Assembly: GCF_024105735.1 (NCBI RefSeq)
Contig: NZ_JAAAML010000005.1
Location: forward strand, 1-64,000
DNA from: Parahoeflea alexandrii
GTDB taxonomy: Bacteria; Pseudomonadota; Alphaproteobacteria; Rhizobiales; Rhizobiaceae
Direction: 5' to 3'
Length of the DNA stretch: 64,000 nucleotides
Below are positions 4,462 to 61,970 of this stretch, piece after piece; the stretch's first letter is position 1, and each line of letters starts with the position of its first letter. Position numbers and translations under genes: made by a program. The notes below the pieces were generated by a model that saw only the letters and a program-made list of their open reading frames with translations, searched no databases and was not told where the DNA came from.

Positions 4462-5778
4462 TCACGATCTGGGCTTGTTTAGGGATTTCAGAAGCGCTTC
4501 CGAGACCTTATACTGTCCTTCCCCGCCCTTGTTGCCGTTTGGCGGCTCCCTATCGGTCGTGGCTGCCGCCTTGTCTGCATCCAGCTTGGTCCGCAGTAGG
4601 GCCATCACCATCGGCCAGGTCGAGAAATGCCCCTCTCTCGCCTTGTCGGTGAGGCTGCGCAGATATCCGCCAGCGCTGTTGATCTGATCGGACCGCTGCA
4701 AGATCGCCGCCAGCGTGATCGCCGCCTGAACTTCGCCCATGGCTTCGCAAGCTTCTCGCCACGCACTCGGACTGACCCCCAGCATCGGCCGGGCCACCTC
4801 TACGGCCGCCAAAAAATCACTCCAGTGGCGTATTCGACCACCCTGAGCCAAATCCATCAGGTCCGGGCAAGCGTCAAGCACGATCCCCAAGGGCAGCTCC
4901 CGCTTCGGCAAGCTCCGCAGGTTGTCGTTTTCCTGGGCGTTGCCGCCCGCTTCATTCTTTTTTTCAGAGCCATGTTCAGATTCAAATATAGAGTTTGGTT
5001 TTGAATTCTGTATGTGGCGTTCAGATTGGGACTCATTGGCGTCCATATTCTGTGTTTTCGTAAACAATTCCAGTATCTCATGCACCTCGGTCCACAACTC
5101 CTGGAGTTCGTCACAAAGGCTTTCGACGACTTGGCGTGGTGCCGTGCGAGGAAGCCGTGCAATAATCTCCTGGTAGATCTGACCAATACGGCCCCAATTG
5201 CCTGGAACGCCCTCCTCAATGCCGGCGTCGATCATCTTCACAACATCCCGACGAAGCAGTGTCAGGCGTTCCTTGGAGACCTTGAAGGCTTTCTTCTCGG
5301 CCTGAACCGCTTCCGCGAGTTGCTCGAACTCCTCGGCGCGGGCCACGATCGGCGAGAGGTCGAAGCCATAGGCCTGTTCGATCTCTCCTCCCCGGCCCTT
5401 GCGCGCGAAACGCTTTCCATTCGGGCTGTCTCTGCGAATGATCAGTCCGCAATCGACGAGGACGGCCAGGTGCCGGCGCAGCGTCGTGGGCGGCATACCA
5501 TTCGCGCGTGCCATGAGTTGTTCATTCGACGGCCAAACGACCAGCGTTCCGTCGCCCGACAGCTCGCTCTCTCGATGGAACGACAGGAGCGCGTTGAGAA
5601 TGGCTAGGGATCGGTCGGTGGCGCCCAGAAGGTCTCGAGCTTCACGAATCGAGCGGAAGACCTTCCACTTCTCGACCGTTGCCCCTTCGGGTATGGATTT
5701 CGCGGTGACTTGACTTGCCATTTGGCCAAGCGTCATCGGCCGCCGCCCAAAGGGCGTCGTGGAGATATGCGTTTGCAT
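4462..5778 (-). CDS. repC: RepC replication initiator
   Basis: A 438-residue RepC, normal length for the family, opening MQTHISTTPFGRRPMTLGQM as in Agrobacterium/Rhizobium plasmids. The N-terminal half has the winged-helix DNA-binding region (WPSNEQLMARANGMPPTTLRRHL...CGLIIRRDSPNGKR), followed by a long linker and a C-terminal domain. RepC initiates replication at an origin that in characterised repABC plasmids lies inside repC itself, so oriV is presumably internal here. AGGTGAAAG precedes the ATG. It is the last gene of the repABC operon, separated from repB by 192 bases that carry the candidate antisense RNA. Confidence 0.95.
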   Translation of the reverse strand: MQTHISTTPFGRRPMTLGQMASQVTAKSIPEGATVEKWKVFRSIREARDLLGATDRSLAILNALLSFHRESELSGDGTLVVWPSNEQLMARANGMPPTTLRRHLAVLVDCGLIIRRDSPNGKRFARKGRGGEIEQAYGFDLSPIVARAEEFEQLAEAVQAEKKAFKVSKERLTLLRRDVVKMIDAGIEEGVPGNWGRIGQIYQEIIARLPRTAPRQVVESLCDELQELWTEVHEILELFTKTQNMDANESQSERHIQNSKPNSIFESEHGSEKKNEAGGNAQENDNLRSLPKRELPLGIVLDACPDLMDLAQGGRIRHWSDFLAAVEVARPMLGVSPSAWREACEAMGEVQAAITLAAILQRSDQINSAGGYLRSLTDKAREGHFSTWPMVMALLRTKLDADKAAATTDREPPNGNKGGEGQYKVSEALLKSLNKPRS

Positions 5779-5824
5779 TTTCTTTCACCTATTACTAGGC
5801 AATAGAAAACTGCTCGCCGAAACG

Positions 5825-5928
5825 GCGCTCACGACTCAAAAGAGCCTTGACTGTGATTCCGGGAAGTGCGATTCTCTAGCTACCACACTAAGAGAGGGCT
5901 TCCGGAAGCGATTTCGGTGGCCTTTTTC
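5825..5928 (+). ncRNA. incA: Candidate counter-transcribed RNA (incA/ctRNA) of the repABC cassette
   Basis: In repABC plasmids a small antisense RNA is encoded between repB and repC on the opposite strand and represses repC. This 192-base gap has the expected features on the plus strand: GGAAG...CTCT (5861-5877) can pair with AGAG...CTTCC (5891-5903), and a second hairpin with GGC-CCG arms (about 5898-5922) is followed by TTTTT at 5923-5927, a plausible terminator. The 5' end is a guess. Position and terminator are observed; the RNA itself is inferred from the family. Confidence 0.5.
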
Positions 5929-25190: not shown

Positions 25191-25520
25191 CTACTGGCGG
25201 ATCATGTCTTCCGGGAGTGGCGGCATATAACCTAGCTTGTTGATGACGGTCGCAGCGATCGGATGGTGGGCCTTCATCATGACGAGCGCCAGGCGATATT
25301 CATGTCGGCGTTGGCCAACCAGGGAACCCTCACCACTCCCTTGTTCAAGAGTATCGAGCAGTTCATAGAGCTCTTGCGCTTTTGCCAACCGACATCGTTG
25401 TTCGCGAATGATGTCGATCGCAAGTCGCTCAAGCTCGTCTTGCTCAAGTTCCGCGAGGATCGTCTCAATGGCACGCTTTGAGCAATCGGGTTTGAGTTCC
25501 AGGCTGCGGATATCCGGCAA
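25191..25520 (-). CDS. traM: TraM-like quorum-sensing antiactivator
   Basis: The C-terminal 109 codons of a longer open frame match TraM: SLELKPDCSKRAIETILAEL, then LERLAIDIIREQRCRLAKA, QELYELLDTL and a final helix ending INKLGYMPPLPEDM. TraM binds TraR and blocks its DNA binding, setting the threshold for conjugation. I infer a TTG start at 25520 (LPDIRS...), giving normal TraM length, with AAGGGG 10 bases upstream. The frame stays open upstream to 25769, but that stretch is the structured RNA element, so the long version is unlikely. It is the last gene of the luxR-luxI-traM block, 302 bases after luxI. Confidence 0.75.
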   Translation of the reverse strand: MPDIRSLELKPDCSKRAIETILAELEQDELERLAIDIIREQRCRLAKAQELYELLDTLEQGSGEGSLVGQRRHEYRLALVMMKAHHPIAATVINKLGYMPPLPEDMIRQ

Positions 25521-25527
25521 TATTGCA

Positions 25528-25765
25528 CCACCCCTTCGGCTTGGTCCGCGGTGCGCCCCCGCGAACGAACAAGATCTTGACCCCAAGCCGGGGGTTAGAA
25601 AACCGCCACAGACGGTCCCTGCGACCTTTAGCACCGAGGCACCTGGACATACGTCGCAGGCCCCCGGCCAATGGCCAGAGGATCCTCGGTGTCGGGTCGG
25701 CCGACACCAAACCGCTGTGGTGGGGTTTCTACGCCCCGAGGCGGCGCGTACCGCCTCGGGGAAAA
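25528..25765 (-). ncRNA. Structured RNA element, copy A (leader of traM)
   Basis: On the minus strand this intercistronic region folds into: P1, an 11-bp perfect stem 25761-25751/25744-25734 with loop TACGCG; GAAACCCC; P2, GGTGTCG/CGACACC (25708-25702/25694-25688); P3, GGCC/GGCC; P4, CCTGCGAC/GTCGCAGG (25660-25653/25625-25618) capped by a CCTCGG hairpin; P5, ACCG/CGGT; and P7, CGCGG/CCGCG with loop GGGCGCA (25563-25547). Copy B at 60350-60591 preserves every one of these with compensatory base changes. The element ends at the AAGGGG ribosome site of traM, so a translational or transcriptional leader is the simplest role. I recognise no known RNA family. Confidence 0.65.
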
Positions 25766-25821
25766 GCATATTTCATCAGGATGATGAACGCCAGACGCCA
25801 GCCCGGATGTTTACATTGAAA

Positions 25822-26493
25822 TTATTCGACATTCGCAACAAGTGCGGTTACCGACGCTGGAGCGATTGCACCATCAGCGAGAACTGATGAACGTAAATCA
25901 CCGGCTGCTCCAAGCCGCGACCGCATGTCGGCGCCTATGTCGAACAGACCGGCATAGGTCATGACCTTCCCGATCCGCACTGGCGTACCGAGCTGTTCAA
26001 AACGGCAATCGATCGACCTGAAAATCCGCGCCATTCTGGCGTCGAAGACCGATACGATGTGTTCGATGCCGGCCCGTTGAGCGACTTCAACCATCCCGTA
26101 CAAAAGCTCGACGGTAGTTTTGCTCACCATGTGGTTTGCTTCTGCCCGATCCCTCGCCTCGAAGATCTGCGGATTGACCGCAAATCGTGAGCTCTCCCAG
26201 ATCAATGGGCTTCCGACCGTACCACCAGGCATCAGCACGGAAAACACGTCTCTGAGCATGTTGGGGCCGGTCGTGGGGAGCAGACGCACAGCGCCACGAA
26301 GCTGTCCTGACCTTTCATCGAGCGACAGAAGGTAGAGAGGGTCTTCTGCATCGAACCGGTCGATCTCCCGTCCGTTTTCGACTTTGACGTCCCAGCCAAG
26401 GCGACCAGAAAAGACTTCGGCCCGCATGCGGAACATTTCGTCAAACAGCTCTGGATACTTGTCCTGATCGGCACTTTCGATTGCGAATATCAT
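25822..26493 (-). CDS. traI: LuxI-family acyl-homoserine-lactone synthase
   Basis: A 223-residue autoinducer synthase. The family's conserved residues are visible: MRAEVFSGRLGW (Arg, Phe, Trp), DRFDAEDPLYLL (Asp-x-x-Asp), GAVRLLPTTGPNML and WESSRFAV (Glu, Arg). It makes an acyl-homoserine lactone from S-adenosylmethionine and an acyl-carrier protein; chain length cannot be predicted. It follows the luxR-type gene by 86 bases on the same strand and is followed by the RNA element and traM. In Ti plasmids traI is the first gene of the trb operon; here it is separated from trb and no LuxR-type box was found directly upstream. Confidence 0.92.
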   Translation of the reverse strand: MIFAIESADQDKYPELFDEMFRMRAEVFSGRLGWDVKVENGREIDRFDAEDPLYLLSLDERSGQLRGAVRLLPTTGPNMLRDVFSVLMPGGTVGSPLIWESSRFAVNPQIFEARDRAEANHMVSKTTVELLYGMVEVAQRAGIEHIVSVFDARMARIFRSIDCRFEQLGTPVRIGKVMTYAGLFDIGADMRSRLGAAGDLRSSVLADGAIAPASVTALVANVE

Positions 26494-59641: not shown

Positions 59642-60349
59642 GGTGCCTCGTCGGAGGACGGCGGAACTGACCTTCGGCCAAAAGCCTGCAGCCGCAGAGG
59701 TGAAAGGAAGATGCCACTTGCCAACCCATGTGCGACTCGAACCTTCAGAACGCTCGGATGAGTTCCAAAATTCCTTGGGCATTTCTCCAGTGACCACAAC
59801 CGTCTCCGTTTTACGACCGCCTACGGAGTATCAGGATCACAAGAGGAACACCCAAGTATGGTGTAAGGCGGTCACTTTCGGTTCTCTCCCGACCACCCCC
59901 TTTGGGCCGATAGTGACGCCACGACGCCTAAAGCTGAATGTCTGCTTACTCGCCTCATTGCCATTACCTGCCTGACAGGTTGCGGCCCCAATCTGGTCAT
60001 TGGTTTCCCCCACAGCGAGTGTCCGGGCTCTGTCCGATCGGGCTGCCCGTTCGAGACCATTAGCTTCACCGGAAGCAGCCAGCTAGGTGCTAAATTTCGT
60101 GTCCGGGCGTAATCTGGGATCTGTAAGCCTCCATGAGATCCGGGTAATGCCGCTGGCGGATCCGAAGCGGGATGTCGGAGGGTGGGCTATTCCCTCCGGG
60201 AACGCGCCCAGCCCTGTCGGTTCAGCGAAAAACTGACACCCCAACTTGCATGAAAGTGCCAGAATACGACAATCCTGCCGCGATCCCGCCTGCTAACCAC
60301 ACTTTTCCGTGTTGGCGCTCTAGCGATGTTGCTTCCTGTCGGCTATTTT
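59642..60349. other. Gene-less region upstream of RNA copy B
   Basis: About 700 bases after the kinase stop. Short frames here show no recognisable family or good ribosome sites. Weak similarity between copies A and B of the RNA element may extend upstream to about 60312 (TGGCG...TCCTG...TATTTTCC). The promoter of the RNA-XRE-AraC unit must lie here but I cannot place it confidently. Confidence 0.45.
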
Positions 60350-60591
60350 CCGCCGCGAGGCAGTACGCGCTGCCTTGGGGCTTGGAAACCCCTCGGTGCG
60401 ATAGGTGCTGGTCGATTCAGCACCAAACTCTCTGACCTTTGGGTCGGGGAGCCTGTGGCGTATGTCCAGGTTCCTCGGAACTAAAGGCCACAGGGCTGTC
60501 ACCGACAGTTTCCAACTCCCCGATCAGTCGGAGGTAATAGTGAGTTCGCGGGGGCGCACCGCGAGAAACTCACCTTTCCGGGGAGCGGCCG
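60350..60591 (+). ncRNA. Structured RNA element, copy B (leader of XRE-AraC operon)
   Basis: Same element as 25528-25765 on the opposite strand. Visible pairings: P1 GAGGCAG/CTGCCTT (60357-60363/60370-60376) with loop TACGCG; GAAACCCC; P2 GGTGCTG/CAGCACC (60404-60410/60418-60424); P3 GACC/GGTC; P4 CCTGTGGC/GCCACAGG (60452-60459/60487-60494) capped by GTTC-CTCG-GAAC; P5 CTGTC/GACAG; P7 GTGAGTT-CGCGG...CCGCG...AACTCAC (60540-60573) with loop GGGCGCA. CTCCCCG (60516-60522) can pair long-range with CGGGGAG (60445-60451), locally, or with the ribosome site GGGGAG (60580-60585), 6 bases before the XRE ATG. Confidence 0.65.
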
Positions 60592-61080
60592 ATGCAACAT
60601 CGGAAGATTGCGTCAACATCCAGATTTCCGACAGCGCCCGACAGGTCTGCAGGAAGTTCCGTCAAACAAGCGCCTCATCCAGCCGACATACATGTCGGCC
60701 GACAGATCACGGCAATCCGCATCCATTCCGACTTCTCGCAGCAGCGGCTCGCCGAAAAGATTGGCATCACCTATCAGCAGCTCCAGAAATACGAAAGCGG
60801 CAGGAACCGCGTGAGCGCCTCTATGCTCTATGAGATAGGCGCCGCGCTGGGTGTTCCCGCAGGCCGGTTCTTCGAAGGCCTGCCCGGCAACGTGACCGCA
60901 GTGGGCGAGACCCCGCAGATACTCGCTGATGAGCGCATCGTCTTCATCGCCAGTTCCCAGGGGCGCCGGCTTACGGAAGGCCTGATGCGGCTCAGTCCGG
61001 ACGTGCGCTCCCGTCTATCTTCGCTGATCACGGCGCTGGCCAAGGACATGTCACAAGCCGATGGGGCGCGTTCGAGATGA
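60592..61080 (+). CDS. XRE-family transcriptional regulator
   Basis: A 162-residue regulator: ~35-residue N-terminal extension, then a Cro/C1-type HTH (DIHVGRQITAIRIHSDFSQQ, RLAEKIGITYQQLQKYESGR, NRVSASMLYEIGAALGVPAG) and a helical tail (LMRLSPDVRSRLSSLITALA). This layout is common in rhizobial plasmid and chromosomal regulators. ATG 60592 follows GGGGAG at the end of the structured RNA. Its stop overlaps the AraC ATG by 4 bases, so both are one operon. Targets unknown. Confidence 0.85.
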   Translation: MQHRKIASTSRFPTAPDRSAGSSVKQAPHPADIHVGRQITAIRIHSDFSQQRLAEKIGITYQQLQKYESGRNRVSASMLYEIGAALGVPAGRFFEGLPGNVTAVGETPQILADERIVFIASSQGRRLTEGLMRLSPDVRSRLSSLITALAKDMSQADGARSR

Positions 61081-61970
61081 CCCGGGAACTCGTCGCTCCC
61101 TTCACGACGTTCAAGACCGGCAGCTGCCGGACCCTGTCGCGCGAGAGCAAATCCTGGGGTCGTGTACGGGCTGAGCAGGTTCAACGAACCGGCCTCAAGA
61201 CAGAGGAGACGTCCCTCACCTCGCGGGATCATCTCGTTCTCCTCAATCTGAAGGGGAGTTCCGAGCGGGGTGATTATTCGCTGGACGGCAAGCCGGCCGG
61301 CTTCGCCCGGCGAAAACCCGGGTCGATCCTGTTCGTTCCTGCGGGGTGTCACTGGAAGGGTTGGGAAGCCGGTGCGGCCTCGGCCGCATACCTGTCGATC
61401 ACAATAGATCCAGCCAAAGTGTCGGAACTGCTCGGTCGGGACAGCGTACGCAGGCATCCGACACTACGTCCGGATCTGGGTTTTGAGGATCCGGCGGTGA
61501 TGCACGCGGTGCGGGGGATAGGGGCGGAGATTCATGATCGAAGCCCTCTGAGCACGCTGCTTGTCGAAAGCTATGTGTCTGCTATCTTCATTCAGTTGTT
61601 TCGCAAGCAGACAAACTATTCCGTTGTCAACAAGGCCGGTGGCTTGGCGCCAAGAAGCTTCAATCGGGTTATGGAGAAAATCGATCAGGATCTCTCCGTC
61701 GATCTGTCCCTTTCACAGCTTGCGGACGTCGCTGGCGTCAGTATTCCGCATTTCTGCAGGGCCTTTAAGCAGATGACCGGCTCCCCTCCATACGCCTTTA
61801 TCATTGGGCGCCGGATCGACCGGGCAAAAGAACATCTGCGCAGCTCGGACATGTCTATCACTGACATAGCCCTCGATTGCGGCTTCTCGAGTTCGAGCCA
61901 CTTTGCAAATGGATTTCGTCGCGAGGTCGGCATGTCGCCCGTGGTCTATCGCAGATCATTCTGGCAATAG
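61077..61970 (+). CDS. AraC-family transcriptional regulator, paralogue of 40033-40914
   Basis: A 297-residue AraC protein: N-terminal domain (RTGLKTEETSLTSRDHLVLL, GFARRKPGSILFVPAGCHWK) and C-terminal double HTH (LSQLADVAGVSIPHFCRAFK, ITDIALDCGFSSSSHFANGF). The same motif order and several identical stretches (DIAL-CGFSSSSHFA, RTGL) show it is a paralogue of the regulator at 40033-40914, so the two may sense related ligands. It is the last gene after the XRE regulator. Confidence 0.9.
   Translation: MTRELVAPFTTFKTGSCRTLSRESKSWGRVRAEQVQRTGLKTEETSLTSRDHLVLLNLKGSSERGDYSLDGKPAGFARRKPGSILFVPAGCHWKGWEAGAASAAYLSITIDPAKVSELLGRDSVRRHPTLRPDLGFEDPAVMHAVRGIGAEIHDRSPLSTLLVESYVSAIFIQLFRKQTNYSVVNKAGGLAPRSFNRVMEKIDQDLSVDLSLSQLADVAGVSIPHFCRAFKQMTGSPPYAFIIGRRIDRAKEHLRSSDMSITDIALDCGFSSSSHFANGFRREVGMSPVVYRRSFWQ

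Follow-up and report, generated by a model that had tools for sequence, protein, structure and literature searches.

The window analysed here (the whole 64,000-nt stretch, part of a 137-kb contig) contains two copies of an element of ~240 nt that are 71% identical to each other (84 bits, E 5e-17 by BLAST). Copy A (25765-25528, minus strand) lies between a luxI/traI-type autoinducer synthase gene and traM, and copy B (60350-60591, plus strand) precedes a gene for an XRE/HTH_3 regulator, which is followed by an AraC-type gene that is probably its operon partner (Table 1). Neither BLAST nor the covariance model described below detected a third copy in the 4.9-Mb genome. The predicted folds lie 5.1 (copy A, z -5.1) and 6.25 (copy B, z -6.25) standard deviations below dinucleotide shuffles (0/200 in each case). 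Reading and aligning the letters placed both copies, and their strands, where an earlier note on this DNA had them, and the paired segments set out in that note are all present: P1 is GAGGCGG/CCGCCTC in copy A and GAGGCAG/CTGCCTT in copy B, P3 (its P2) is GGTGTCG/CGACACC and GGTGCTG/CAGCACC, P6 (its P4) is CCTGCGAC/GTCGCAGG and CCTGTGGC/GCCACAGG, and P5 is ACCG/CGGT and CTGT/ACAG; the 17-nt CGCGGGGGCGCACCGCG is found in both copies. Copy A does occupy the luxI-traM gap, but this gap measures 301 nt rather than the 302 given there if traM starts at TTG 25520. New relative to that account are a promoter-like sequence, the pseudoknots PK1 and PK2 and the closing helix X (all three of them long-range pairings), a hairpin inside P6 (P6a), the wide spread of the family and the identity of the genes that follow copy B, first XRE and then AraC.

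Table 1. Features of the two element copies and of the neighbouring genes, in window positions.
Feature	Positions	Strand	Basis
Copy A promoter-like sequence: CTGGCG 25794-25789, 17 nt, ATATGC 25771-25766	25766..25794	-	letters checked; placed by eye, below cut-off in hexamer scan
Copy A P1 hairpin, loop TACGCG	25738..25757	-	alignment of relatives
Copy A P1b hairpin GGGG[CGTAGAAA]CCCC; loop supplies PK1 5' strand 25731-25727	25722..25737	-	alignment
Copy A PK2 5' strand CACAG, partner is P5 loop	25715..25719	-	covariation
Copy A P3	25688..25708	-	alignment
Copy A helix X 5' strand GGCCGGGGG; Shine-Dalgarno-like; also 3' side of alternative P4 hairpin	25661..25669	-	alignment, duplex energies
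Copy A P6 with ATGTCCAG 25650-25643, P6a hairpin 25642-25631, TAAAG 25630-25626	25618..25660	-	
Copy A P5; loop CTGTG 25611-25607 is PK2 3' strand	25602..25616	-	
Copy A PK1 3' strand TTCTA	25596..25600	-	
Copy A helix X 3' strand CCCCCGGCT, putative anti-Shine-Dalgarno	25586..25594	-	
Copy A P7 terminal hairpin GCGGGGGCGCACCGC; plasmid-type members	25548..25562	-	
Copy A Shine-Dalgarno-like GAAGGGG	25531..25537	-	
traM, proposed TTG start	25191..25520	-	Pfam PF09228 E 6e-13
luxI/traI-type autoinducer synthase, upstream of copy A	25822..26493	-	PF00765 E 5e-40
Copy B promoter-like sequence: CTAGCG 60320-60325, 17 nt, CTATTT 60343-60348	60320..60348	+	hexamer scan
Copy B P1	60357..60376	+	
Copy B P1b; PK1 5' strand 60383-60387	60377..60392	+	
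Copy B PK2 5' strand CGGTG; alignment counts GGTG only	60394..60398	+	
Copy B P3	60404..60424	+	
Copy B helix X 5' strand GTCGGGGAG	60443..60451	+	
Copy B P6; P6a 60470-60481	60452..60494	+	
Copy B P5; loop CACCG 60500-60504 is PK2 3' strand	60496..60509	+	
Copy B PK1 3' strand TTCCA	60510..60514	+	
Copy B helix X 3' strand, putative anti-Shine-Dalgarno, CTCCCCGAT	60516..60524	+	
Copy B P7	60548..60562	+	
Copy B Shine-Dalgarno-like GGGGAG, complementary to CTCCCC of X 3' strand	60580..60585	+	
XRE/HTH_3 regulator behind copy B	60592..61080	+	PF01381 E 5e-12
AraC-type regulator, 4-nt overlap with XRE gene	61077..61970	+	PF12833 E 5e-24, PF00165 E 2e-19

Relatives of copy A occur in 343, and relatives of copy B in 389, of 72,556 plasmid records (blastn), mostly from Agrobacterium and Rhizobium and next from Bradyrhizobium, Shinella and Methylobacterium; 253 of the 343 records matched by copy A are typed as conjugative. 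Scanning genome_contigs with a core pattern gave at least 118 stretches, and the titles of the matches listed include names of Rhizobiales, sphingomonads and Rhodobacterales. The collected set held 158 core matches, nine of which duplicated, as alignment rows, sequences counted elsewhere; full flanks were available for 140, unique elements numbered 121, and 92 were non-redundant by shared 8-mers (the near set). Alignment A3 comprises 73 of these 92, and a covariance model was built from the 73 sequences. The search for further homologues in Alphaproteobacteria with such a model, proposed in the earlier note, returned many matches: 63 of 397 genomes drawn from the order, 49 of 385 drawn from the class and 7 of 18 of the genus were matched, the own genome being counted each time, with up to six matches per genome. 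In a draw from the phylum, which overlaps the earlier draws, 25 of 398 genomes had a match, and 7 of these 25 lie outside the class, with weaker best E-values of 8e-11 to 4e-5. Alignment A4 holds 66 genome-match rows (65 distinct), 8 of which repeat A3 sequences and 9 of which repeat the set of 92; counts were redone without the repeats, which left the judgements below as they were.

The RNA is a large structured family without an Rfam match. In Rfam 15 neither copy reaches gathering level, in agreement with the earlier note, in which the family was not recognised; the best sub-threshold scores are 20.9 bits for copy A and 13.6 bits for copy B, both on the opposite strand, against gathering scores of 60 and 47. 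Fifteen further loci, most with distant members, likewise gave no Rfam match over the element, and Rfam families were rejected as its identity. Elsewhere in the window, positions 5776-5852 (minus strand) match the S-element RF00490 at 49.2 bits and lie immediately ahead of an ORF (4462-5778) of a replication-type region. A translated region was rejected as well, in keeping with the noncoding reading of the earlier note: all three sense frames are closed by stops in 62 of the 92 elements (copy A is among the 30 with an open one, and 27 of the 92 have an open frame on the opposite strand), core lengths are spread over all residues modulo 3, and the stem cells, P4 left out, hold 251 G-U against 24 A-C, as expected of RNA of this strand. 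A functionless mobile repeat was rejected because the copies differ by compensated changes and precede different genes. Among phage records, blastn gave 0 matches for one distant element and 2 of 50,697 for copy B; in viral_contigs the core pattern matched 1 stretch and a TraM relative was not found. One copy there, on an IMG/VR contig (L149), lies ahead of a VasI-like protein.

Covariation supports P1, P1b, P3, P5, P6, the two pseudoknots and the closing helix X. In the nine-helix structure of A3 (P1, P1b, PK1, PK2, P3, X, P6, P6a and P5; 73 sequences), 97.6% of cells are paired, both sides have changed in 36 of 53 pairs (shuffled mean 22.5, 0/500), and 562 cells carry a change on both sides (shuffled mean 149, 0/500). 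Pairing drops to 36-50% when the structure is slid by one to three columns, and is 95.8% when the local hairpin P4 replaces X, P4 itself being paired in 87.3% of cells and X in 97.4%. Under a tree-based null on the 92 sequences (60 simulated alignments), PK2 had all of its five pairs above the largest null score, PK1 its variable pair, and P1, P3, P6a, P4 and X one pair each. Of the 24 pairs in the tree-based list, 12 keep complementarity in 90% or more of the sequences; the remaining 12 are confined to columns 96, 108, 110, 112, 116, 183, 187 and 189, which change together at one deep split, so that the case for X within the near set derives partly from one event. PK1 and PK2 are absent from the covariance model; on the 65 distinct genome matches their covariation score (with P1b) is 0.517 vs 0.160, and without the 9 rows that repeat the set of 92, paired cells number 269 of 281 for PK1 and 207 of 253 for PK2. 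With many homologues and supported covariation in hand, the argument of the earlier note for selection on RNA structure is upheld.

Comparison among relatives supports a compact predicted fold, in which X closes a three-way junction with P6 and P5 and which is held together by the two pseudoknots: in PK1 the P1b loop pairs with the segment that follows P5, and in PK2 the P5 loop pairs with the one that follows P1b. Inside P6, ATGTCCAG and TAAAG face each other, and this region looks like a putative binding pocket. That ATGTCCAG and CTAAAGG are strictly conserved in the near set is in part a product of the search, whose pattern fixed those bases; exact ATGTYCA is present in 55 of the 66 model matches and absent in 11. 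Within copy A, P5 followed by GGTTTTCT (25625-25605, minus strand) scores as terminator-like and is a possible pausing site.

Helix X joins a Shine-Dalgarno (SD)-like strand before P6 to a CYCCCSG strand after PK1. Of 144 sequences, 132 form 8 or more contiguous pairs in it and 11 form fewer than 6, seven of these 11 being Rhizobium XRE-type copies with a mismatch. Matched duplex energies are more favourable than permuted ones in the 92 near sequences (-19.4 vs -16.4), in 52 genome matches (-18.6 vs -14.3) and in the 44 usable genome matches outside the 92 (-18.7 vs -14.1; 0/200 in each). The 11 of 66 genome matches lacking the exact core are left out of the 52, and also of the 83-nt test below. 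X was judged by these energies and on A3, the column register of A4 being off for X (23-65 of ~64 cells paired). For the anti-SD strand paired with the 38 nt after P7, the energy is -11.6 vs -10.6 permuted (0/200; 67 of 92 sequences usable, 25 not), and with 83 nt downstream it is -14.1 vs -13.7 (92 sequences) and -11.9 vs -10.8 (53 sequences; 0/200 each), the best partner within the 83 nt often being P7 rather than the SD. This effect is small to modest, is not common to all copies and partly reflects two sequence classes; it is clearest where an SD of GGGGAG, GGGAGTT or GGAGAGTT mirrors CTCCCC, AACTCCC or AACTCTCC. In five copies, sphingomonad-type and alike, the best ORF starts 81-126 nt after P7, and those scored show little SD complementarity. 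Against permutation, the alternative P4 hairpin shows no advantage in the near set (31/200) but does so in the genome set (0/200). X and the anti-SD:SD pairing share one strand and both beat permutation, with P4 competition in the genome set only. A crude scan without shuffled control flagged terminator-like tails in 12 of 66 genome matches; among distant members there are cases in which such a hairpin directly adjoins the X strand.

An ORF start, belonging to one of the two longest ORFs, lies 10-36 nt beyond P7 in 101 of the 121 unique elements. A script chose 156 downstream ORFs, of which 147 were searched against Pfam and nine were left out as redundant; TraM was matched by 60, HTH_3 by 17, RovC/DUF2285 by 12 (a count that is low because six of the nine omitted ORFs were of that type), AraC by 4, and the Mrr, DUF4268, VasI, cold-shock, glycosyltransferase and nuclease families by one or two each. 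One ORF (L011) is TraM-like by eye without a Pfam match. TraM is the commonest gene behind the RNA and not the only one; the RNA is not TraM-specific. The element stands before traM in plasmids of Chelativorans, Bradyrhizobium, Afipia and Ancylobacter, in two Ti plasmids and in Agrobacterium pAt4, before HTH regulators in Paracoccus and Rhizobium plasmids, and before hypothetical ORFs in Roseibium, Pseudochrobactrum and A. vitis. An unannotated TraM-like ORF follows it in Nitrobacter, and the next annotated gene in Bosea is an autoinducer synthase ~490 nt on. Three Methylobacterium-type plasmids have no annotated gene directly behind the element, with unannotated 70-71 aa ORFs behind two of them, and two further plasmid records with the element carry no annotation. 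In genomes with several copies, the additional ones lie ahead of genes for paralogous small membrane proteins, HTH proteins, outer-membrane proteins, DprA-like and anti-repressor phage-type proteins and an HNH nuclease. These diverse downstream genes point to no obvious ligand.

The paralogous small membrane proteins, each behind its own RNA copy in some genomes (L175, L178, L223-L232), start with a YxFxxDLLxTxxSxxDWxK-like sequence by eye; those of L175, L178, L223, L225 and L229 had no Pfam match, and those of L175, L223 and L229 had no PHROG match. A cobalamin riboswitch (117 bits; L187 2345-2559, plus strand) lies ~0.6 kb downstream of one distant copy.

Just 5' of the element, with relatives aligned on P1b, CTGGCG-17-CTATAA-like hexamers, chosen by eye from the same sequences in which they were then counted, occur in 62 of 85 relatives (shuffled-control mean 12.6); 53 of the 62 have a 17-nt spacer, and in 50 the distance from the end of the second hexamer to P1b is 27 or 28 nt. 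A tra-box-like 18-mer (at least 14 of 18 matches) lies upstream in 12 of the 92 near sequences, in 11 of them at 177-179 nt before the core, and all 12 precede TraM ORFs, two Ti plasmids among these. Passages of a 2014 review (PMC3907764) give traM a TraR-dependent promoter with tra box IV and place class I tra boxes ~65 nt ahead of the start site; at that spacing the transcript start would fall near the 5' end of P1. Taken with these passages, the promoter-like sequence and the tra-box-like sites at fixed distance suggest that the RNA is probably the leader of the TraR-activated traM mRNA. An RNA leader before traM, as the earlier note proposed, thus gains from the promoter and tra-box placement and from the same position in the seven traM plasmids named above; the proposal has to be broadened to the other genes that follow the element. 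A passage on A. tumefaciens (PMC4201532) reports lower TraM protein in cells without Hfq, which is compatible with control at the RNA level but does not point to this element.

A conserved structured domain with covariation in a probable 5' leader, the general mark of a riboswitch, is what we find here. Judged from sequence, the element is probably a cis-acting, riboswitch-like 5' leader of regulator mRNAs that would be transcribed and would switch as follows. The 3' strand of X (CYCCCSG) would serve as an anti-SD. With the domain folded and X formed, this strand would be sequestered, allowing translation of traM behind copy A and of the XRE-AraC pair behind copy B; were X to open, perhaps by its 5' strand pairing into P4, the anti-SD would mask the SD. 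We infer the direction, folded being ON, from the shared strand. Where, in some distant members, the X 3' strand leads into a terminator-like hairpin instead, transcription could be what this switch controls. A metabolite, a protein or an sRNA might stabilise or open the fold. The output of copy A would be the dose of TraM, the TraR antiactivator, and hence the quorum threshold for conjugation, and that of copy B would be the XRE-AraC pair. More tentatively, and with some doubt on our part, the family may form a new alphaproteobacterial riboswitch class that is carried largely by mobile elements and responds to a single cellular signal common to its members, either a second messenger or a stress- or growth-state metabolite. 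From as many as six sites per genome it would set the translation of conjugation brakes (TraM) and regulators and of phage-type, pilus-like and restriction-type genes.

TraM sets the quorum-sensing threshold for transfer of Ti and related plasmids, and the 2014 review, in one passage, calls for closer study of its regulation (PMC3907764). A conserved switch-like traM leader, if true, would add a missing layer to TraM control and makes testable what controls rhizobial plasmid transfer besides cell density. One RNA module would be common to plasmids and other genes across Alphaproteobacteria and, if ligand-sensing, would constitute a new class of riboswitch that comes with reporters ready for use.

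In some riboswitches that control translation, a strand of the closing helix doubles as the anti-SD. The element resembles these in that the X 3' strand has a second complementary partner in the SD region, in its pseudoknotted domain with conserved unpaired bases and in its place just before a start codon; it differs from them in having no assigned ligand, in a fold and sequence without an Rfam match, and in its ~240 nt with two pseudoknots plus X. Like QfsR (Diel et al. 2019, via PMC7912708), it is a Ti-plasmid RNA tied to the quorum-sensing and conjugation circuit, but QfsR is set apart by its description, in a passage of that source, as acting in trans on trb and chromosomal mRNAs. The Atu_Ti1 sRNA (RF02506) is also a Ti-plasmid ncRNA near tra genes, but it lies antisense within traB (L004 2351-2442, minus strand), ~1.6 kb from the traM leader, and does not overlap the element. 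The raiA-motif/ModT RNA is likewise widespread, highly structured and first found by comparison, but belongs to other phyla and other genes (PMC11706538).

We think it unlikely that the RNA is processed or terminated into a stable sRNA that pairs in trans through its open parts with Hfq, its place before genes being a by-product. Its own promoter-like sequence and the terminator-like tails of the 12 genome matches would suit such an RNA, as would the fall of TraM without Hfq (PMC4201532, in the passage cited above) and the pTi sRNA QfsR, which is said in a passage of PMC7912708 to pair with trb mRNA. The short distance from P7 to an ORF start in most elements, kept before unrelated ORFs, argues against it; copy A has no terminator-like site after P7, and among the 28 genome matches above 126 bits a terminator-like tail was flagged in L162 and L169 only. 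A constitutive leader, whose fold would protect the mRNA or keep the ribosome site open without switching, draws on the energies: X averages -19.1 and the weaker pairing of the anti-SD with downstream sequence -13.3, a difference that may keep the folded state dominant at all times. However, the conserved unpaired nucleotides in P6 and the two pseudoknots exceed the needs of a stabiliser, and some distant members have terminator-like hairpins right next to the X 3' strand; we regard a leader of this kind as improbable.

The many conjugative plasmids among the copy A matches would fit a single-stranded-DNA element, such as a priming site or a single-strand promoter in conjugation, in place of an RNA. 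Other copies, however, precede phage-like or membrane-protein genes in genome contigs, the start-codon spacing and SD complementarity are not expected of single-stranded DNA, and the G-U excess fixes the strand, although single-stranded DNA would tolerate G-U too, and we consider such an element highly improbable. The element could also have been described already, for instance as a listed Ti-plasmid transcript, and merely be absent from Rfam; a passage of a C58 survey reports 475 candidate ncRNAs, 20 of them 5' UTR leaders (PMC3738593). We hold a prior description to be rather unlikely, as no such family is named in the full-text literature matches listed, from which subscription papers mostly fall outside, and Rfam has no entry for it.

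Under the riboswitch-like leader that we favour, the Rhizobium XRE-type copies L009, L087, L089, L090, L125, L152 and L153 show a mismatch in X and a local P4 hairpin that looks well paired, as if the switch balance were shifted in them.
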